NCBI RefSeq assembly: GCF_003852425.1
Contig: NZ_QAJN01000012.1
Coordinates: 182,009-246,008, forward strand
Origin: Paucibacter sp. KBW04
GTDB lineage: Bacteria; Pseudomonadota; Gammaproteobacteria; Burkholderiales; Burkholderiaceae_C
Length of the DNA stretch: 64,000 nucleotides
Direction of reading: 5' to 3'
A program made the translations under genes and the position numbers. Position 1 is the stretch's first letter, and every line of letters begins with the position of its first letter. Of this stretch, positions 15,680-25,170 are shown piece after piece. The notes under the pieces are model-generated. The model saw only the letters and a program-made list of their open reading frames with translations, was not told the origin of the DNA and made no database searches.

Positions 15680-16816
15680 TCAACGGTACTGCCGCAGATA
15701 GTTCCACTCGAAGCCGCGCTTGGCCCAATGGAGGAGGCGCGTGGACGGAAACAGCCAGTTGCGCTCGGGCGTGCGCCAGATCAGCGTGCCTTGGGCTAGG
15801 GCGTCGACGATGCAGATCAGCTCGACCTTGAAGGTCTCCTTGCTCGCCCGGCCTTGCAGGTCACCGAGCAGGTTGGCGGCCGCGGCTGCGGCCTGCAGGT
15901 CGGCCATATGGGCTTGCTTGGGCATCCAGTCGGGGCCAGGGAAGCTGCCCGAGTCGCCCGCCACATAGACCCGCTGCAGCCCCGGCACGCGGCATTGCGC
16001 GTCGGCTTGCAGCAGGCCACCGGGCGAGCGTGGCAATGTGGTGGCGTCGAACCAGGCGTTGCCGGTCATGCCGGGCATGAACAGGATCAGGTCGGCGGCG
16101 AATTCGCCACCTTCGGTCACGACCTTGTTGGCCTCGAAGCGGCTGAGCTTGTGACCCAGGTGGGTACGAATGCCCCGTCGTGCCATCTCGTCGAGCAGGT
16201 GCTTTACCGCTTTGGGCCCCAAACGGTTGCCGGGCTCGGTGGAGGGATTGAAGAACACGATCTCGAAACGCTCGCGTCGGCCCTCGCGCCGGAGCTGCTC
16301 GTCGATGCCGAACAGAAACTCGAACATCGGGCCGCCGCGCACGGCCGTGGGCTCCTTGGGATTGCCCGCGAAGCCGACGGCGAGGGTCCCGCCGCTCATC
16401 TCGCTCAGCCGGTCGCGGATGCGCTCGGCCGCTGTAATGCCTTCGCAAGGCGTGATGGCGTGTTCGATGCCTGGCAGCTTCTTGATGAAGCGTCCGCCTG
16501 TGGCGATGACGAGTGCGTCGTTGACGATGTCGCCACCGGCGGTGTGTACGACGCGGCCGTCATCGCTCAAGCCTGTGACCTCCGAAGCCACGAAGTGCAC
16601 CCGCTGGCGCCGCAGAAAATTGTCCAAGGGGATGACCAGGTCCTCGCGCTTTCTGAGGCCGCTGGGGATCCAGATGATGCCGGGCAGGTAATGCAGTTCG
16701 GCGCGCGGAGCGACCAGCGTGATCTCGACGCTTGGGTCGCGACGGCGCAGTTCACGGACCGTCGACAGCCCGGCGAACCCTGCGCCGAGCACGGTGACGC
16801 GCGGTGCGCTCGTCAT
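15680..16816 (-). CDS. SQR/NDH-2-superfamily FAD oxidoreductase (candidate sulfide:quinone reductase)
   Basis: A 378-residue flavoprotein. It has an N-terminal FAD-binding GAGFAG (11-16), ALVIATGG (101-108) and a C-terminal VYVAGDSGSFPG (283-294), the layout of sulfide:quinone oxidoreductases and flavocytochrome c sulfide dehydrogenases. Cysteines C124 and C335 occupy positions like two of the redox cysteines of SQR, but a cysteine near 160 is missing, so sulfide as substrate is not proven. No transmembrane helix is seen; SQRs bind the membrane by amphipathic helices. It is the last gene of the cytochrome bd operon, so the quinol it makes could feed the oxidase directly. The ATG overlaps the stop of a possible small ORF. 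Confidence 0.75.
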   Translation of the reverse strand: MTSAPRVTVLGAGFAGLSTVRELRRRDPSVEITLVAPRAELHYLPGIIWIPSGLRKREDLVIPLDNFLRRQRVHFVASEVTGLSDDGRVVHTAGGDIVNDALVIATGGRFIKKLPGIEHAITPCEGITAAERIRDRLSEMSGGTLAVGFAGNPKEPTAVRGGPMFEFLFGIDEQLRREGRRERFEIVFFNPSTEPGNRLGPKAVKHLLDEMARRGIRTHLGHKLSRFEANKVVTEGGEFAADLILFMPGMTGNAWFDATTLPRSPGGLLQADAQCRVPGLQRVYVAGDSGSFPGPDWMPKQAHMADLQAAAAAANLLGDLQGRASKETFKVELICIVDALAQGTLIWRTPERNWLFPSTRLLHWAKRGFEWNYLRQYR

Positions 16817-16908: not shown

Positions 16909-17190
16909 TCAATGTTGAAGCTTCAATACTAGGGCCAAAGAGAGCGCTGCCGCACAGGACCAAGCCGAGAACAGCCAACGCCAGCCTCCTGCGCGCGGCA
17001 CAAAGCCCACGCCTCGAACAAAGCCTGCGCTCATGGCCCAGAACAAACTCGTCGCCAAAGCGTGATCGGCGCGGCCGGCGGCGTCGGCCATCAGCGGCGG
17101 GTACACCGTGCCGCCCACCATGATCATCAGGGCAAGTGCGAGGCAGGGCAGATGGACACGCGAGGGCGCTGAAGGCATCGGGGCTGTCAT
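16909..17190 (-). CDS. ybgE: YbgE-like cyd operon membrane protein
   Basis: A 93-residue protein with two or three hydrophobic segments. The central FWAMSAGFVRGVGFVPR (50-66) matches the conserved AGxIHGVGFRP block of YbgE, the small protein encoded with cytochrome bd in many proteobacteria, although His is replaced by Arg here. The role of YbgE is not settled. The ATG overlaps the cydX stop (ATGA), which fixes the start and removes a much longer spurious frame through the Rieske gene. Confidence 0.8.
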   Translation of the reverse strand: MTAPMPSAPSRVHLPCLALALMIMVGGTVYPPLMADAAGRADHALATSLFWAMSAGFVRGVGFVPRAGGWRWLFSAWSCAAALSLALVLKLQH

Positions 17191-17318
17191 TGCCTGGCCC
17201 CGTCGTCGCCATCCCTGGCAGCTTGGATGCGGGCATCCTCGTTCTCGCCCCACATCGCGTTCATGATGGCCAGCAATACGGCAAGGCCGACTCCTAACAT
17301 CCAGGCGAAATACCACAT
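17187..17318 (-). CDS. cydX: CydX, small subunit of cytochrome bd oxidase
   Basis: A 43-residue single-pass membrane protein beginning MWYFAWMLGVGLAV and continuing to NAMWGENED. This is the hallmark of CydX: an MWYFAWxLG start, one hydrophobic helix, then an N-x-M-W-x-E end. CydX binds CydA and stabilises the haems of the bd oxidase. It is too short for most ORF calls. It starts 12 bases after the Rieske gene and its stop overlaps ybgE. The tail after residue 30 is charged and longer than in E. coli CydX. Confidence 0.92.
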   Translation of the reverse strand: MWYFAWMLGVGLAVLLAIMNAMWGENEDARIQAARDGDDGARQ

Positions 17319-17330
17319 GGTCTGGCTCCT

Positions 17331-17948
17331 TCAGCTTGCGGCGTCTTCGCCGATGAGGAGGCGCGCGTCGCCTGCATAGCGATGCGGCGGGATCTCGAGG
17401 TTGGTCGGCGCCGGTTTGTTCTTGAACACGCGGCCCGCGCCGTCGAAGGTCGAGCCGTGGCAGGGGCAGAAAAAGCCCCCCGGCCAATCCGCCGGCAGGC
17501 TCGGGTTGTTGCCGTCCTTGGGTGCCTTGCTTGGCGAGCAGCCGAGGTGGGTGCAGATGCCGATGGCGACGAACACCTCCGGCTTGATGGCGCGCGCCGG
17601 GTTCTTCGCGTAGGCGGGCTGCTGGTCTTTCAGCGACTGCGGGTCGACGAGTTGATCGTCGTGGCCTTGCAGCGAAGCCAGCATCTCCGCTGTGCGGCGC
17701 AGCACCCAGACGGGCTTGCCACGCCACTCGACCGTCTTCATGCCGCCGGGCGGGAGGTCGGAAATGTCCACCTCGACCGGGCCGCCGGCCGCCTTGGCGC
17801 GCTCGCTAGGCGCGAAGGTCGATACGAAGGGGATGGCTGTGGCGACGGCGGCCACGCCGCTGGCAGCGGCCGTCGTCATCAGCCAAAAGCGGCGCTCGGG
17901 ATCGCCTGGCTGGGCCGGGCAGTTGGGGTTCGGGAGGGTGTGGTCCAT
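17331..17948 (-). CDS. Rieske iron-sulfur protein (bc1 type) inside the cyd operon
   Basis: A 205-residue protein that looks like the Rieske subunit of cytochrome bc1. A twin-arginine-like RRFWLMTTAAA segment (19-29) starts a membrane anchor, followed by the soluble 2Fe-2S domain. The cluster ligands are C132-T-H134-L-G-C137 and C161-P-C163-H164-G-S, with both disulfide cysteines present. The length matches bc1 Rieske proteins. No cytochrome b or c1 gene accompanies it. It sits between cydB and cydX, so it is produced with the quinol oxidase. Whether it serves a bc1 complex encoded elsewhere or a bd-linked role is unknown. Confidence 0.88.
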   Translation of the reverse strand: MDHTLPNPNCPAQPGDPERRFWLMTTAAASGVAAVATAIPFVSTFAPSERAKAAGGPVEVDISDLPPGGMKTVEWRGKPVWVLRRTAEMLASLQGHDDQLVDPQSLKDQQPAYAKNPARAIKPEVFVAIGICTHLGCSPSKAPKDGNNPSLPADWPGGFFCPCHGSTFDGAGRVFKNKPAPTNLEIPPHRYAGDARLLIGEDAAS

Positions 17949-17981: not shown

Positions 17982-19124
17982 TCAATAGGCCGTGTGTTCG
18001 TTGGCGCGGATGTGCGCCAGAGTGACCTTGCCGCGCATCACCCGATACGCCCAGGCGGTGTAGAAAATGATCAGCGGCATGAAGATCACGGTCGCCCAGA
18101 ACATCAGGCCCAGCGTCAGGTGGCTGGAGGCGCTGTCCCACACCGTCAGGCTGGCGTTCAACATCGTTGACGACGGCATCACAAAGGGGAACATCGCCGC
18201 CCCCGCCGTGCCGATGACGCCGACGATCGCCAGCGACGAGGCCACAAATGCCGTGAGGGTTCGGCGAACGATCGCTAAGCCAGCGGCCAGCAGCGCGCCT
18301 GCAACGCCCAGCACAGGCAGCAGCCACAGCAGGGGTTGCTTGGCGTAGTTCATCCACCAGGCCTCGGCGCTGCGCGCCACGCTCTTGCTCAGCGGGTCGG
18401 GCAGCGCGGCGGGGTCGATCGATGAGGTGATCACATAGCCCTCGATGCCGCCCAGCCGCAGCCAGACCCCCGCGCCAAGGAAGGCAAGCACCATCAGCAA
18501 GGCCGCACTCACCGCGCCACGCACCGCGCGCTGCTGGATCGCGCCCTCGGTCCGGTGGGCCAGGTACATGCCGCCTTGCATCGTGATCATTGCGCTGCTC
18601 ACCACGCCGACCAGCAGCGCGAAGGGGTTGAGCAACTGCCAGAAGGTGCCGGTGTAGGTGGACACCATATAGTCATCGAAGCCGAAGGGCACTCCTTGAA
18701 ACAGATTGCCAAAGGCCACACCAAAGATCAGCGGCGGCAGCGCGCCACCGATGAACAGACCCCAGTCCCAGATGCTGCGCCAAGTGGCGTTGTGGATCTT
18801 GCTGCGATAGTCGAAGCCCACCGGTCGAAAGAACAAGGCCCAAAGCACCGCGAGCATGGCCCAGTAGAAGCCGCTGAAGGCGGTGGCATAGACCAGCGGC
18901 CAGGCCGCGAAGATGGCGCCGCCGCCGGTGATGAACCAGACCTGGTTGCCGTCCCAATGCGGGCCGACGGTGTTGATGACCACGCGGCGCTCCTCATCGC
19001 CCTTGCCAACGAAGGGCAATAGCGTGCCCACGCCCATGTCATGGCCGTCCATGATGGCGAAGCCCACGAGCAGCACGCCCACGAGTAGCCACCAGATCAC
19101 TTTGAGGCTTGGGTAATCGATCAT
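17982..19124 (-). CDS. cydB: Cytochrome bd ubiquinol oxidase subunit II
   Basis: A 380-residue integral membrane protein with about eight to nine helices. The start MIDYPSLKVIWWLLVGVLLVGFA and MDGHDMGVGTLLPF (25-38) are classic CydB features, as is WDGNQVWFITGGGAIFAAWP (57-76). CydB pairs with CydA to form the quinol oxidase and contributes no haem ligands of its own. Length is normal (379 in E. coli). It lies 10 bases after cydA with no terminator between them. The oxidase works at low oxygen and is resistant to sulfide, nitric oxide and cyanide in other bacteria. Confidence 0.97.
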   Translation of the reverse strand: MIDYPSLKVIWWLLVGVLLVGFAIMDGHDMGVGTLLPFVGKGDEERRVVINTVGPHWDGNQVWFITGGGAIFAAWPLVYATAFSGFYWAMLAVLWALFFRPVGFDYRSKIHNATWRSIWDWGLFIGGALPPLIFGVAFGNLFQGVPFGFDDYMVSTYTGTFWQLLNPFALLVGVVSSAMITMQGGMYLAHRTEGAIQQRAVRGAVSAALLMVLAFLGAGVWLRLGGIEGYVITSSIDPAALPDPLSKSVARSAEAWWMNYAKQPLLWLLPVLGVAGALLAAGLAIVRRTLTAFVASSLAIVGVIGTAGAAMFPFVMPSSTMLNASLTVWDSASSHLTLGLMFWATVIFMPLIIFYTAWAYRVMRGKVTLAHIRANEHTAY

Positions 19125-19134
19125 GGCGAATTCC

Positions 19135-20709
19135 TTAGGCGTGGGCCGGTGTGGCGGGGTGGGCAGCTTCTTGCTGGTAGCGCCCGGTGCCCAGGCTGCC
19201 AGGTCCTTGCTTGGCGAACTTCTGCATCAGGTAGATCTCCACGATCAGCAGAACGGTGTAGAAGCCGATGAAGCCTGCCAGCGAGCCGTACAGGCTGCTC
19301 ACCGTGAGCGTCGAGACGCTCAGGTGAGTGGGAAGAACGCCGTAGATGGTCCAGGGCTGGCGGCCGTATTCGGCGACCACCCAGCCCAACTCGCAGGCAA
19401 TCCAGGGTGCTGGCAGCATCCACAAGGCCCACTTCAAAAGCCAGGGCTTGGGTGTGCAGCCTCTCTTGAGCGTGCCCCAGAACGCCAGGGCGAACAGCAG
19501 CAGCATCGCGAAGCCGAGGCCAACCATGATGCGGAAGCTCCAGAACATGGGCGTCACGCGGGGCACGGTGTCGTTCACCGCTTTGCTGATGATCGCGGGC
19601 GTGGCCTGGCGCACATCGACCACGTATTTCTTGAGCAGCAGGCCGAAGCCGAGGTCGGCCTTGTAGCGCTCAAAAGCCTCTTTGGCCACGGGGTCATCGC
19701 GGTGCTTGCGCAGTACCTCCAGCGCTGTCACAGCGAGGATGCCGCGTGCTATGCGTTGCCGGTTCTTGGCCTTGATCTCGCGGATGCCGGGGATTTCCTT
19801 GCTGACCGAGCGCGTGCCGATCAAACCCATCAGCCAGGGCAGCTCGATTTCCCAGTCGTTCTTGGCTTCGGCTTCGTTGATACCGGCGATCAGCTTCAAG
19901 CCCGCAGGCGCAGGTTCGGTCTCCCACATCGCCTCCAGGGCGGCCATCTTGGTCTGCTGGGCTTCGCCCACCATATAGCCAGACTCGTCGCCGAGCACGA
20001 TCACGCTCAGCGTCGACGCGAGGCCAAATGCCGCCGCCACGCGAAAGCTGCGTTTGGCGAACTCCACGTCCCGACCCTTGAGCAAGTACCAACTCGAGAT
20101 CGACAACACAAACATCGCACCGGTCACGTAGCCGGCAGAGACGGTATGCACGAACTTGGCTTGTGCGTCGGGGTTGAAGACCACGGCCCAGAAGTCGGTC
20201 ATCTCCATGCGCATGGTTTGGTAGCTGAACTCGGCCCCGACCGGGTTTTGCATCCAGCCATTGGCGATGAGGATCCACAAGGCACTGAGATTGGTGCCGA
20301 TGGCCATCAGCAGGGTCACCATCAGGTGCTGGGTCTTGCTCAGCCGATCCCAGCCGAAGAAGAACAGGCCGATGAAGGTGGATTCGAGGAAGAAGGCCAT
20401 CAGCCCTTCGATGGCCAATGGTGCGCCGAAGATGTCGCCTACGTAATGAGAGTAGTAGGCCCAGTTGGTGCCGAACTGAAACTCGAGCGTGATGCCGGTC
20501 GTGACACCCAACGCGAAGTTGATGCCGAACAATTTGCCCCAGAAACGCGTCATGTCCTTCCAGACCACCTTGCCGGTCATGACGTAGACGCTTTCCATGA
20601 TCACCAGCAGCCAGACCATGCCGAGGGTCAGTGGCACGAACAGGAAGTGGTACATCGCGGTGGCGGCGAACTGCAGTCGCGAGAGGTCGACAAGCTGTTC
20701 CGAAATCAC
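19135..20709 (-). CDS. cydA: Cytochrome bd ubiquinol oxidase subunit I
   Basis: A 524-residue haem-bearing subunit. Visible features are H21 in AMYHFLFVPLTLG (a haem b595/d ligand), FVHTVSAGY with the b558 histidine, the quinol-binding loop starting GDESGYMVGEAQQTKMAALE, and GWVVAEYGRQPW. The quinol loop is long, as in E. coli-type (L-form) enzymes. The start is a GTG: AGGAGA lies six bases upstream and the coding sequence then begins ISEQLVDLSRLQFA like other CydA proteins. The longer frame from an upstream ATG runs through cydP and is rejected. The cydP stop overlaps this GTG. Confidence 0.97.
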   Translation of the reverse strand: MISEQLVDLSRLQFAATAMYHFLFVPLTLGMVWLLVIMESVYVMTGKVVWKDMTRFWGKLFGINFALGVTTGITLEFQFGTNWAYYSHYVGDIFGAPLAIEGLMAFFLESTFIGLFFFGWDRLSKTQHLMVTLLMAIGTNLSALWILIANGWMQNPVGAEFSYQTMRMEMTDFWAVVFNPDAQAKFVHTVSAGYVTGAMFVLSISSWYLLKGRDVEFAKRSFRVAAAFGLASTLSVIVLGDESGYMVGEAQQTKMAALEAMWETEPAPAGLKLIAGINEAEAKNDWEIELPWLMGLIGTRSVSKEIPGIREIKAKNRQRIARGILAVTALEVLRKHRDDPVAKEAFERYKADLGFGLLLKKYVVDVRQATPAIISKAVNDTVPRVTPMFWSFRIMVGLGFAMLLLFALAFWGTLKRGCTPKPWLLKWALWMLPAPWIACELGWVVAEYGRQPWTIYGVLPTHLSVSTLTVSSLYGSLAGFIGFYTVLLIVEIYLMQKFAKQGPGSLGTGRYQQEAAHPATPAHA

Positions 20710-20882
20710 TGCGGGTCTCCTTGGTGGGACATTTCGACGCCGATGTGTTCGGCCGTCTGTTCGGCATTGGTGCTCACGCGGGCATCGCGTACAAAAAACC
20801 ACCACAGCGCACACAACACTGCGAGCTTCAGAGCAATAGCAATGGCGAGGTGGCGCACGAGGCGGCGATCATCTGACTTCAT
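20706..20882 (-). CDS. cydP: CydP-like small cytochrome oxidase subunit
   Basis: A 58-residue protein: a basic start (MKSDDRRLVRH), one membrane helix LAIAIALKLAVLCALWWFFV (12-31) and a polar tail. This matches the small CydP proteins encoded just ahead of cydA in many beta- and gammaproteobacteria. Its stop overlaps the cydA GTG. There is no ribosome binding site before the ATG. The predicted sigma-54 start of transcription is only two or three bases upstream, so the message may be leaderless or the true start may lie further in. It opens the cyd operon. Confidence 0.75.
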   Translation of the reverse strand: MKSDDRRLVRHLAIAIALKLAVLCALWWFFVRDARVSTNAEQTAEHIGVEMSHQGDPQ

Positions 20883-20885
20883 GGG

Positions 20886-20899
20886 TTGATAGCTATCAA
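20886..20899. promoter_or_regulatory. FNR/ANR-type palindrome overlapping the sigma-54 -12 element
   Basis: TTGATAGCTATCAA is a perfect match to the FNR consensus TTGAT-N4-ATCAA. Its first half is the -12 region of the sigma-54 promoter and its second half touches the cydP start. Binding here would block sigma-54 polymerase rather than activate it from the usual -41 position. It may be a real oxygen-responsive operator or a coincidence. Confidence 0.4.
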
Positions 20900-20910
20900 G
20901 ATCCGTGCCA
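20895..20910 (-). promoter_or_regulatory. Sigma-54 promoter of the cyd operon
   Basis: On the minus strand the sequence reads TGGCACGGATCTTGAT, a -24/-12 element that matches the sigma-54 consensus (TGGCACrnnnnTTGCw) at every fixed base except A for C after TTG. The same deviation occurs in the two sibling promoters of this region. Predicted transcription start is about 20884, directly before the cydP ATG. Confidence 0.75.
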
Positions 20911-20993
20911 TGCCTTGTCTCCTCTGAAAGTCTTTTGTGAACAATGACTTAGAGTGTTGGGCGTGGCATTGCTGCGCTTGAAGTTTCTTGAAA

Positions 20994-21011
20994 CTGCCAT
21001 TTGTGGCAGTC
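20994..21011. promoter_or_regulatory. Candidate FisR enhancer site upstream of cyd operon
   Basis: ACTGCCATTTGTGGCAGT is a perfect inverted repeat with 7-base arms. It is centred about 118 bases upstream of the predicted cyd transcription start. Related TGGCAGT/ACTGCCA repeats occur at about the same distance from the two other sigma-54 promoters of this region. Confidence 0.65.
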
Positions 21012-21130
21012 GGCTGCCTTCGTTGGCATGCGGTCCGCCATGCCCTGCCGCGTTGTTCTGCGCGGCTGTCGAGAGATTCTGGACATGGCATGTTTGTGCT
21101 TGCTGGTCGACGGGACGGCCATCGAATGCA

Positions 21131-22024
21131 TCAGTCCAGACTCAGGGGAACTTTCATATACCTCTGCCCATCACTCAGCGGCTCCGGCAGCCGACCGGCG
21201 AAGAGATTGAGTTGCAGGGCGGCCTGCATTTGCCGGGGCGGGGCCAAGGTGGCGTCGCGTTGCTGGCGCAGGGCCACATAGGCGTCTTCGCTGATGCCGT
21301 CGCGCACCTGCAGATTGCATTGCCTTTGCTCTTCCACCGTCGTCATCCAGGCGGCATCTCGCTCCTGCGGCGGGTAGTCGTGGCAGAAGTAGAGGGGCGT
21401 TTGCGGCGGCAGGCTGAGCAGGCGGTTGATGCTGCGGTAGAGCTGGCGCGCATCGCCGCCAGGGAAGTCGCAGCGACCGGTGCCGAGGTCGGGGGCGAGC
21501 AAGGTGTCGCCCACAAAGGCGGCGCTGTGTCTGCCCTCCTGCAGCACGAGCCAGCTGAGGCAGGCCGGCGTGTGGCCGGGGGTGTGCCAGGCTTGGACTT
21601 GCAGCTCACCGAAGTTCAGCTGTTCACCGTCGGCCATCAGAAGGTCAAAGGGCTGCATGCTGAGGGGCGGCAGTTTGTAGAGCCTGCGCAAACTTTTTTG
21701 CACCGCCGGGACGGCGGCTGACACGGCGATGCGGGCGCCGGTCAGGCTTCGGAGGTAGTCGGCCGCGCTGATGTGGTCCGCATGCAAATGCGTTTCCAGA
21801 ATGGCGCTGAGCCGCAGCTCGCGGGCCTGCAGGCGCTGCAGGATGCGATCGGCCTGCTGGGTGTCGATGCGACCGGTGCTGGCTTCGAGCGCCAGTACCG
21901 GGTCGATGAGCATGGCTTGGCGGCTGGGTGAGTCAATCAATAAATGGCTGAAGGTGGCGCTCGCGGGGTCGAAGTAGCTCTCGACTTCGAGTCCACCCAC
22001 ATGGCTGAGAAAGGGGGCGGGCAT
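21131..22024 (-). CDS. pdo: Persulfide dioxygenase-like MBL-fold protein
   Basis: A 297-residue metallo-beta-lactamase-fold protein of the ETHE1/persulfide dioxygenase group. Metal-site motifs are THLHADH (78-84), WHTPGHTP (146-153) and VGDTLL (171-176). The following GRCDFPGGDARQLYRSI stretch is typical of bacterial persulfide dioxygenases rather than of glyoxalase II. These non-haem iron enzymes oxidise glutathione persulfide to sulfite. The ATG follows GGAGAA five bases away; the earlier in-frame extension runs across the promoter and is rejected. The gene is divergent from the FisR-type activator and has its own sigma-54 promoter, the arrangement known for pdo/sqr and fisR in Cupriavidus. 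Confidence 0.82.
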   Translation of the reverse strand: MPAPFLSHVGGLEVESYFDPASATFSHLLIDSPSRQAMLIDPVLALEASTGRIDTQQADRILQRLQARELRLSAILETHLHADHISAADYLRSLTGARIAVSAAVPAVQKSLRRLYKLPPLSMQPFDLLMADGEQLNFGELQVQAWHTPGHTPACLSWLVLQEGRHSAAFVGDTLLAPDLGTGRCDFPGGDARQLYRSINRLLSLPPQTPLYFCHDYPPQERDAAWMTTVEEQRQCNLQVRDGISEDAYVALRQQRDATLAPPRQMQAALQLNLFAGRLPEPLSDGQRYMKVPLSLD

Positions 22025-22055
22025 GGCAGTTCTCCGTGCTGGATGCCACCCCGTA

Positions 22056-22071
22056 CTCAAGTTCAGTGCCA
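22056..22071 (-). promoter_or_regulatory. Sigma-54 promoter of the persulfide dioxygenase gene
   Basis: The minus strand reads TGGCACTGAACTTGAG: -24 GG and -12 GA with correct spacing, the same TGGCAC-N5-TTGA form as the cyd and ccoG promoters. Predicted start is near 22046, leaving a leader of about 22 bases that contains the ribosome binding site. Confidence 0.75.
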
Positions 22072-22135
22072 CGCTCTGACCCTGGGTCGCCTGCATCAGC
22101 CGGCCTTGTTCAAGCGCTGCCAGCGCTGACAGATA

Positions 22136-22163
22136 TGGCAGTTCAGGCAGACAATGTCTGCCA
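22136..22163. promoter_or_regulatory. Candidate FisR enhancer site between pdo and fisR
   Basis: A TGGCAGT half site (22136-22142) is followed by the perfect palindrome GGCAGACAATGTCTGCC (22146-22162), ending in TCTGCCA. The palindrome centre is about 108 bases upstream of the predicted pdo start and 20-36 bases before the fisR ATG, so the activator could also limit its own synthesis. Confidence 0.65.
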
Positions 22164-22181
22164 AAGTCTACGCCGTCCGCC

Positions 22182-23522
<1,341 letters not shown>

Positions 23523-23545
23523 GCCCATGAACTCTTGAGCCTGTT

Positions 23546-23597
23546 TGGCAGTCGCTGACTGCCAGCGTACTGCCAATTTGGCGGTATTGACCGCCAA
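23546..23597. promoter_or_regulatory. Cluster of candidate FisR enhancer sites upstream of ccoG
   Basis: Three related elements lie in 52 bases. TGGCAGTCGCTGACTGCCA (23546-23564) is a perfect inverted repeat, ACTGCCA (23569-23575) is a half site, and TTGGCGGTATTGACCGCCAA (23578-23597) is a second perfect inverted repeat. They are centred about 117 and 84 bases upstream of the predicted ccoG transcription start. Confidence 0.65.
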
Positions 23598-23645
23598 GCT
23601 GGGTTTGGAAGCTGCTGAAACCGCGCGGGCAGGGCCTCGGGGCCC

Positions 23646-23661
23646 TGGCACGAAACTTGAT
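23646..23661 (+). promoter_or_regulatory. Sigma-54 promoter of ccoG
   Basis: TGGCACGAAACTTGAT fits the -24/-12 consensus with the same single deviation (TTGA for TTGC) as the cyd and pdo promoters. Predicted start is near 23672, about 53 bases before the ATG. Confidence 0.75.
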
Positions 23662-23724
23662 TCAGTCGAGTCATCAGTAGGCCTTCAGGCCTGCGCCAAA
23701 CCAATCGCTTTGCCAAAGACCCTC

Positions 23725-25170
23725 ATGGAAAACTCAGCCACCGCGCCCCAGGCCCCAAAGCCTTCTGACGACTCCGCCGAGTACAAAAAGATCTGGCTCT
23801 ACCAAGCGCAGTCCAAGCTCTACCCGCGCTCGGTCAGCGGCCTGTTCAGCCGCTGGCGCTGGGGCATGGTGGCCCTGACCCAGCTGCTGTTCTACGGCCT
23901 GCCCTGGCTGGACTGGGGCAGCCGCCAGGCGGTGCTGTTTGAGCTGAGTTCGCGGCGTTTTTACATCTTTGGCCTGGTGCTCTACCCGCAGGACTTCATC
24001 TACCTGACGGCGATGCTGATGCTGTCAGCCTATGCGCTCTTTTTGTTCACCGCTGTGGCCGGGCGGCTGTGGTGCGGCTATACCTGCCCGCAGACGGTGT
24101 ATTCCGAAATCTTTATGTGGATAGAGCGCAAGTTCGAGGGCGACCGCGCCGCCCGCATGAAGCGGGACCAGGGCCCCTGGACGCTGGAGAAGCTCGGGCG
24201 CAAGGCCGGCAAGCAAGCCGCCTGGATCGCCGTGGGCTTGTGGACCGGCTTTAGCTTTGTGGGCTACTTCACGCCCATACGCCAGCTGGCCGGCTCGGTG
24301 CTGAGCCTGGGCACCGGCCCCTGGGAAACATTCTGGGTGCTGTTCTACGGCTTCGCCACCTACGGCAATGCGGGCTATATGCGGGAGCAGGTCTGCAAAT
24401 ACATGTGCCCCTATGCGCGCTTCCAGAGCGCCATGTTTGACAAAGACACCTTGATCATCAGCTACGACACCGAGCGCGGTGAGCCGCGTGGCGCGCGCGG
24501 CAAGAAGGTCGATGCCAAGGCCGCTGGCTTGGGCTCTTGCATCGACTGCGGGCTGTGCGTGCAGGTCTGCCCCACGGGCATCGACATCCGCAAAGGCTTG
24601 CAGTACGAGTGCATAGGTTGTGCCGCTTGCGTGGATGTCTGCGACGGGGTGATGGACAAGATGGGCTATGCCAAGGGTCTGGTGCGTTATGACACGCAGC
24701 ACGGTCTACAAAACCACTGGAGCCGCAGCCAGGTCTTGCGCCGCATGTTCAGGCCCCGGGTGTTGGTCTACACCGCCATCCTGTTCATCATCAGCGGCGC
24801 CTTGCTGGGCAGCTTGTTGACCCGCACGCCCTTCCGGGTCGATGTGGTGCGAGACCGCGCCTCGCTGGCGCGCCAGGTGGAAGACGGCTTTATCGAGAAC
24901 GTCTACCGCCTGCAAGTCATGAACGGAACCGAGCAGCCGCAGAGTTATGTGCTCAGCGCCGAAGGCCTGGACGGCCTGCGCTGGACCGGCCCGGACCGCA
25001 TGACTTTGGGCCCGGCCGAGGCGCGCTGGATGACGGTGTCCCTGCGCATCCCGCCCGAGTCCGCCCTGGCGGCCGGTACCGGCGCCAAGCCCATCTTGAT
25101 CAAGGCCCAGATGGAGAAGTCGGACAAGCAGCGGGTGGAGAAGTCGACCTTTGTGGTGATCAAGCCTTGA
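23725..25170 (+). CDS. ccoG: CcoG, cytochrome c oxidase accessory protein
   Basis: A 481-residue membrane iron-sulfur protein. It has membrane helices in the first 270 residues with CGYTCPQTVYSEIFMWIE and CKYMCPYARFQSAMFD. Two 4Fe-4S motifs follow (CIDCGLCVQVCP and CIGCAACVDVCD), then a further helix and an Ig-like C-terminal domain. CcoG (RdxA/FixG) reduces copper for assembly of cbb3 oxidase in other bacteria. The start MENSATAPQ was chosen because the upstream in-frame ORF crosses the sigma-54 promoter. No cbb3 structural genes are nearby; instead the gene follows fisR, which suggests sulfur-responsive expression. Confidence 0.92.
   Translation: MENSATAPQAPKPSDDSAEYKKIWLYQAQSKLYPRSVSGLFSRWRWGMVALTQLLFYGLPWLDWGSRQAVLFELSSRRFYIFGLVLYPQDFIYLTAMLMLSAYALFLFTAVAGRLWCGYTCPQTVYSEIFMWIERKFEGDRAARMKRDQGPWTLEKLGRKAGKQAAWIAVGLWTGFSFVGYFTPIRQLAGSVLSLGTGPWETFWVLFYGFATYGNAGYMREQVCKYMCPYARFQSAMFDKDTLIISYDTERGEPRGARGKKVDAKAAGLGSCIDCGLCVQVCPTGIDIRKGLQYECIGCAACVDVCDGVMDKMGYAKGLVRYDTQHGLQNHWSRSQVLRRMFRPRVLVYTAILFIISGALLGSLLTRTPFRVDVVRDRASLARQVEDGFIENVYRLQVMNGTEQPQSYVLSAEGLDGLRWTGPDRMTLGPAEARWMTVSLRIPPESALAAGTGAKPILIKAQMEKSDKQRVEKSTFVVIKP

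Follow-up and report, generated by a model that had tools for sequence, protein, structure and literature searches.

Sigma-54 promoters with shared upstream half-sites suggest that a FisR-type activator links persulfide oxidation to cytochrome bd and CcoG in Paucibacter sp. KBW04

A 64-kb stretch of DNA from Paucibacter sp. KBW04 (hereafter the window) carries a gene for a FisR-type sigma-54 activator among three transcription units, namely a cytochrome bd (cyd) operon, a persulfide dioxygenase-like gene (pdo, PDO2-like) and ccoG. Each unit is preceded by a sigma-54-type promoter found by pattern search, with short half-sites further upstream. The features central to the argument are listed below.

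22182..23522, plus strand: fisR, encoding a sigma-54 activator of 446 aa with a PAS sensor, an AAA+ domain carrying GAFTGA and a C-terminal Fis-type helix-turn-helix (HTH)
20895..20910, minus strand: sigma-54-type -24/-12 promoter of the cydP-cydA operon, TGGCACGGATCTTGAT (TGGCAC-N5-TTGA match at 20896-20910)
20964..21028: half-sites upstream of the cydP promoter, with the dyad ACTGCCA-TTTG-TGGCAGT at 20993-21010 and more half-sites at 20964 and 21024
20706..20882, minus strand: cydP, 58 aa, a reading frame named by likeness to relatives and by the position of annotated CydP in Pseudoalteromonas
19135..20709, minus strand: cydA, cytochrome bd subunit I (Pfam Cyt_bd_oxida_I, 2e-175)
22056..22071, minus strand: sigma-54-type promoter of pdo, TGGCACTGAACTTGAG (match at 22057-22071)
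22118..22163: half-sites upstream of the pdo promoter, between pdo and fisR, with an inverted repeat at 22146-22163
21131..22024, minus strand: pdo, persulfide dioxygenase-like protein of the metallo-beta-lactamase (MBL) fold, 297 aa (ATG at 22024)
23646..23661, plus strand: sigma-54-type promoter of ccoG, TGGCACGAAACTTGAT (match at 23646-23660)
23546..23598: half-sites upstream of the ccoG promoter, TGGCAGT-CGCTG-ACTGCCA (inverted repeat 23546-23564), then TGCCA and TTGGCGGT-ATTG-ACCGCCAA
23725..25170, plus strand: ccoG (rdxA/fixG; TIGR02745, 502 bits against a cut-off of 317)

An earlier note on this DNA had claimed that three promoters of identical form precede cydP-cydA, the pdo-like gene and ccoG, and this proved correct. 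The pattern TGGCACNNNNNTTGA (TGGCAC-N5-TTGA) has exactly three matches in the window, at these three places, against 0.17 expected, and none of 100 shuffled sequences reached three. Canonical sigma-54 promoters carry GG at -24 and GC at -12 (TGGCAC-N5-TTGCW); in all three window promoters the -24 element is perfect and the -12 element reads TTGA. Exact TGGCA/TGCCA half-sites located 50-175 nt 5' of the -24 element number four at cydP, two at pdo and three at ccoG. Inverted repeats had also been placed about 118, 108 and 117 bases upstream of the predicted starts. When these are taken as transcription starts, set by convention 12 nt after the -12 element (predicted near 20884 for cydP, 22045 for pdo and 23672 for ccoG), the repeat centres lie at approximately 118 (cydP), 110 (pdo) and 117 nt (ccoG), so the distances largely hold. 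What the repeats have in common is the half-site TGGCAG(T), and the order of half-sites in the dyad at cydP is opposite to that at ccoG. Because the arrangement of half-sites varies among the promoters, the idea of one fixed-geometry operator was dropped. Across the whole window, half-sites were fewer than in shuffled sequences, and no cluster of four within 60 nt was found.

The activator matches Pfam PAS_4, Sigma54_activat (8e-65) and HTH_8. An AlphaFold model of its sensor (mean pLDDT 84, from a five-row alignment) has a PAS fold with matches to NifL and LOV domains. The sensor contains C55, C66 and C73, three cysteines already recognised as having FisR spacing, and this triad is kept in 51 of 51 aligned FisR rows. 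We take C53/C64/C71 of Cupriavidus pinatubonensis FisR to correspond to them in spacing. The closest match in a plasmid collection was the protein of Cupriavidus metallidurans CH34, with 67% identity over 98%, and in a tree built without two truncated rows (L111 and L122) the window FisR falls in a supported 15-row clade with it; orthology to Cupriavidus is drawn from this protein, not from the C. pinatubonensis sequence. The AAA+ domain with GAFTGA, the Fis-type HTH, the cysteine triad, the C. metallidurans orthology and a promoter 5' of persulfide dioxygenase/SQR genes mark the window protein as FisR-like. C. pinatubonensis JMP134 FisR (Li et al. 2017, doi 10.1111/mmi.13725, as cited in PMC9774590 and PMC12170894) is likewise a sigma-54 activator with three conserved cysteines, and in the accessible parts of two papers FisR is described as sensing reactive sulfur through di- or tetrasulfide links among the three cysteines, its ATPase activating transcription (PMC9774590, PMC12170894).

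The pdo product matches PDB 4efz (2e-86), 4ysk/4ysl (7e-82; presumably the Pseudomonas putida PDO) and ETHE1 4chl (6e-28), and is thus close in sequence to the solved bacterial MBL-fold members of PDO2/Blh type. The earlier note had named only cydP-cydA in the operon downstream of the first promoter; five further genes follow.

17982..19124, minus strand: cydB (TIGR00203, over cut-off)
17331..17948, minus strand: second Rieske protein, of the ubiquinol-cytochrome c reductase iron-sulfur subunit type (TIGR01416, over cut-off)
17187..17318, minus strand: cydX-like small protein, 43 aa (MWYFAWMLGVGL...), a frame in the position of annotated cydX in Pseudoalteromonas
16909..17190, minus strand: ybgE (Pfam Cyd_oper_YbgE 4e-20, on a longer frame; TIGR02112 1e-8, under cut-off)
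15680..16816, minus strand: sulfide:quinone oxidoreductase (SQR)-like FAD oxidoreductase, 378 aa (closest solved structure Acidithiobacillus ferrooxidans SQR, E 1e-24)

The cydP stop codon overlaps the cydA start (GTGA, four bases shared), and the SQR-like gene sits 92 nt past ybgE, at the end of the operon. From orientation and spacing, cydP-cydA-cydB-Rieske-cydX-ybgE-SQR-like would form one transcript. With CydA, CydB and small subunits encoded, the quinol oxidase fits the cytochrome bd-I type. Four cysteines of the second Rieske protein are kept in 19 of 19 aligned proteins, and three cysteines of the SQR-like protein, C124 and C275 among them, are invariant in 8 of 8 (window included in both cases). 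A Rieske gene inside the cyd operon recurs at other fisR loci, sometimes with its own FisR-type promoter.

To place this arrangement in context, a sensor-domain search was run over 250 sampled genomes of the family. FisR matches were present in 46 of them, 12 at 60% identity or more and 34 at approximately 42-50%. The window genome (G000) is one of the 46; the other 45 gave 46 fetched loci (two from G058), and a second, partial match in G213 lies outside the fetched set. A contig scan with full-length FisR returned 80 loci, most matching the AAA+ part alone, from which L001-L004 were used. Among the 46 family loci, window excluded, genes near fisR encode CydA (20 loci), Rieske (18), CcoG (13), PDO (11) and the SQR-like protein (7); 38 loci have one or more of the first three. 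Clustering of neighbours over 52 loci added a BLH-domain-SQR fusion (11), truncated globin (8), SulP (7), YgaP-type membrane proteins (7), a cytochrome that we presume to be of octaheme type (7), TauE (5), flavocytochrome c sulfide dehydrogenase (FCSD; 3) and rhodanese (3). Outside the family, fisR of Pseudoalteromonas xiamenensis is divergent to cydP-cydAB-cydX-ybgE. On the FisR tree, linkage to cyd takes 12 changes, at least nine of them on supported branches, and has thus been gained or lost many times.

Promoters were then collected from these neighbourhoods by searching 5' of five gene types for the -24/-12 pattern, with half-sites playing no part in the choice. This gave 47 promoters from 41 of 49 loci; the set keeps a match in L122 at -194 that is probably spurious, and the match in L110, which overlaps half-sites, is the least convincing. 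A matching promoter stands 5' of cydP/cydA, Rieske or ccoG at 34 of the 46 family loci, and such matches also precede Rieske or ccoG where one of these is the leading gene. Half-sites average 3.6 at the collected promoters (n=47) versus 0.7 at 57 control matches, sigma-54-like sequences elsewhere in these loci (p 1e-14), and at least three half-sites are found at 35/47 versus 5/57. The centre of the half-sites lies 103 nt (sd 18) upstream of the -24 element over 46 promoters, and their consensus is TGGCAG(T), with G in 78% and T in 48% of 166. The dyad TGCCA-N4-TGGCA, allowing one mismatch, occurs in 25/47 versus a mean of 1.0 in five shuffles. An IHF-like site is also present in 25 of the 47 (shuffle mean 2.0), mostly starting 36-45 nt upstream of -24. 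In C. metallidurans CH34 the same promoter and half-site syntax as in the window stands 5' of pdo, with sqr behind it, and of tauE (four and five half-sites, respectively).

Several observations touch individual promoters. The -24/-12 match starts 27-29 nt before the cydP start at 9 of 13 cydP-led loci, window included; in the window, the cydP ATG (20882) follows the promoter so closely that an mRNA leader of approximately 2 nt would result. An FNR-type palindrome, TTGATAGCTATCAA, at 20886-20899 overlaps the cydP -12 element and is the sole exact copy in the window; at the remaining 46 collected promoters it is exact in none and present with one mismatch in two. A second, oxygen-related input at cydP is possible. 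Two of the five half-site-rich control matches (L105 and L108) look like genuine FisR-type promoters 5' of other genes, the one at L108:7993-9462, with three half-sites, preceding a 458-aa protein that is probably membrane-bound and has a C-terminal cytochrome c domain. A strict dyad-plus-promoter pattern matched 19 of the 250 genomes. In six the match falls at FisR-neighbourhood promoters (G000, G013, G075, G152, G159 and G208). In the other 13 it lies elsewhere; fisR is present in four of them (G101, G117, G121 and G210) and absent from nine. The sites in these 13 were rejected as new regulon members: they lie under open frames of at least 242 aa, with one exception (139 aa), and were read as chance.

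A further comparison came from cydA itself, whose copies were separated by eye into a window-like type (at least 82% identity) and a divergent type (at most 69%). FisR is encoded in 20/26 genomes with the window type versus 26/224 others (p 4e-12), and in 5/29 genomes with the divergent type (p 0.65). The earlier note had proposed searching related genomes for the promoter and repeats 5' of cydA, and the cyd operon proved to be preceded by them at all 21 loci where the window cydA type lies beside fisR (19 in the family, the window and L001). A strict promoter with at least one half-site was found at 18 (three of these have one half-site and one has two), L097 has a variant promoter with five, and in L116 and L121 the promoter stands 5' of a Rieske gene leading the operon. 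By contrast, a FisR-type promoter was found at 0 of 14 divergent cydA copies, six of them in fisR genomes; this control covers 14 of 31 copies, in 13 of 29 genomes. None was found at the second cyd copy of G245. In G053, cyd and fisR lie on different contigs and the cyd promoter carries five half-sites, which supports action in trans. At L093:11272-13756, a distant bd oxidase (36% identity) stands beside fisR with a FisR-type promoter and six half-sites, which suggests that the regulon acquired it independently.

In the whole own genome (5.6 Mb, the window being part of contig C4), TGGCAC-N5-TTGA has 20 matches. A slightly wider promoter pattern with a half-site 70-100 nt upstream returned ten sites besides the three promoters of the window; these ten lie under open frames of 317-615 aa, so they look like coding matches, and have one to three half-sites each. 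Open frames are an imperfect criterion: the pdo and ccoG promoters are themselves covered by frames of 353 and 543 aa. Half-site count is not unique to the window promoters in this genome, and the weight of the case therefore rests on relatives. The genome holds four ccoG copies, the window gene and those at C1:492876, C3:104777 and C12:152481 (71, 58 and 50% identical), together with one further Rieske gene and a distant bd oxidase; no FisR-type promoter was found in the stretches fetched for the three other ccoG genes, the other Rieske gene and the distant bd genes.

Taken together, the observed promoters, half-sites, gene content and conservation support a model in which FisR is a persulfide/polysulfide-responsive sigma-54 activator driving pdo, the cyd operon and ccoG through TGGCAG half-sites, and we consider this reading quite probable. 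The combined regulon of persulfide oxidation, cytochrome bd and ccoG that the earlier note had envisaged is thereby strengthened on comparative grounds: the neighbourhood is conserved, promoters and half-sites stand 5' of cydP, Rieske or ccoG in many genera, none occurs at the 14 divergent cydA copies, and the pdo-sqr and tauE genes of C. metallidurans carry the same syntax.

A number of observations weigh against this reading. At 33 of the 47 collected promoters the -12 element is TTGA where TTGC would be usual, and an IHF-like site, allowing at most one mismatch, was found at none of the three window promoters. CydA, Rieske and CcoG are all absent from the fetched stretch at 8 of 46 FisR loci, several of these contigs being short. 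The P. xiamenensis cydP promoter match has just one half-site, and no FisR-type promoter was seen at a Thalassotalea locus with fisR near cydAB. Three more genomes of the genus were in the sample; none has a close cydA, and FisR is present in only one. Among the fisR-less genomes with the window cydA type, four of six were covered (in G163 and G112 the gene starts at a contig edge); two have no promoter, G173 combines a weak match with a single half-site, and in G081 three half-sites accompany an AGGCAC promoter. The pdo promoter, with two exact half-sites, has fewer than two of the ten open-frame sites in the own genome, which have three each. We take the catalytic cysteines of canonical SQR to be C160/C356 of the A. 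ferrooxidans enzyme; C335 of the window protein aligns at C356 and no cysteine aligns at C160. With just one canonical catalytic cysteine aligned, the protein is called SQR-like only, and its SQR activity is putative. Finally, Acinetobacter baumannii FisR activates pdo-sqr-tauE-hsd and lies divergent from the pdo-sqr-tauE operon, and cydAB is sulfide-induced in that organism, an induction that the accessible part of PMC7315123 does not attribute to FisR.

The reading that survives best beside this one accepts control of these promoters by the activator and assigns its main signal to nitric oxide (NO), nitrite or a redox/oxygen cue, as for NorR-like activators, with bd, the truncated globin and the octaheme-type cytochrome forming an NO/nitrite response; we regard it as unlikely. 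Cytochrome bd also confers NO resistance, truncated-globin genes lie near eight loci that all belong to the more distant FisR group, octaheme-type cytochromes lie near seven, and A. baumannii FisR, which lacks sensor cysteines such as C55/C66/C73 of the window protein, still responds to sulfide. However, the window FisR falls in the Cupriavidus-type clade, which has PDO and SQR among its partners, its cysteine triad is invariant, and TauE, SulP, rhodanese and FCSD are among the neighbours. Its score against the NorR profile is 271 bits, far under the 476-bit cut-off.

It is decidedly improbable that FisR controls pdo alone, with a different activator acting on the sigma-54 promoters of cydP and ccoG and their half-sites being incidental. 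The own genome does hold 11 further sigma-54 activator matches, and repeat geometry is not alike among the three promoters; against this stand the constant distance of half-sites across genera, the co-occurrence of fisR with the window cydA type, their adjacency and the trans case of G053. Chance, or gene clustering without shared regulation, is disfavoured and very improbable: TGGCAC-N5-TTGA is short, the same loci hold a further 57 sigma-54-like matches, and long open frames cover ten matches to promoter and half-site elsewhere in the own genome, but 0 of 100 shuffles reach three matches, position relative to the cydP start and half-sites are kept in relatives, and 0 of 14 control cydA copies have the promoter.

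Under the model of a sulfur-responsive FisR, a build-up of sulfane sulfur would modify the cysteines of the PAS domain, as reported for Cupriavidus FisR, and the activator, bound to TGGCAG half-sites approximately 100 nt upstream, would remodel sigma-54 RNA polymerase at the three promoters. The pdo promoter would yield the persulfide dioxygenase, the cydP promoter would yield cytochrome bd, its partners CydP, CydX and YbgE, the second Rieske protein and the SQR-like flavoprotein, and the ccoG promoter an additional CcoG. Persulfide would be removed and quinol oxidation shifted to a sulfide-tolerant oxidase. Cytochrome bd is described as refractory to sulfide in the part of PMC7315123 available, which could leave a route to oxygen open for electrons that enter the quinone pool. 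The Rieske protein and CcoG may serve as spare or repair parts for the sulfide-sensitive bc1 complex and haem-copper branch, with copper supply as a possible link.

In the accessible literature, the targets reported for C. pinatubonensis FisR are sulfide-oxidising genes, whereas in the window cytochrome bd, Rieske and ccoG genes also lie downstream of such promoters. The known persulfide sensors SqrR, BigR and CstR are, in the portions seen of PMC12170894 and PMC8148161, repressors of sulfur-detoxification genes belonging to other families, unlike the sigma-54 activator of the window. A direct tie between FisR and cytochrome bd (cydAB) was not found among the open-licence papers listed, which were covered mostly by titles and abstract openings. 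Work attributed to Forte (2016) and Korshunov (2016) reportedly established cytochrome bd as a sulfide-resistant oxidase in Escherichia coli, the same enzyme and the same proposed physiological logic as for the window cyd genes. E. coli cytochrome bd is under ArcA/FNR-type control; that of the window, in contrast, appears to be under a dedicated sulfur-sensing sigma-54 activator.

Induction of cytochrome bd by sulfide is known in several bacteria, without a dedicated sulfur sensor having been named for it in the parts of the literature covered here. Many genera have recognisable sites of a known type of persulfide-sensing activator at their bd, Rieske and ccoG genes, which makes this link directly testable, and the syntax of TGGCAG half-sites approximately 100 nt upstream of TGGCAC-N5-TTGA can be used in searches for FisR targets. 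If the model holds, it would give a reason for the second Rieske gene in the cyd operon, and for the extra ccoG copies, of some genomes. We advance more tentatively, as a possibility a little short of evenly balanced, that FisR is a family-wide switch for sulfide-proofing respiration, combining persulfide removal with an alternative quinol oxidase and replacement Rieske and CcoG proteins, and that it may have repeatedly captured different bd oxidases, one of them distant.

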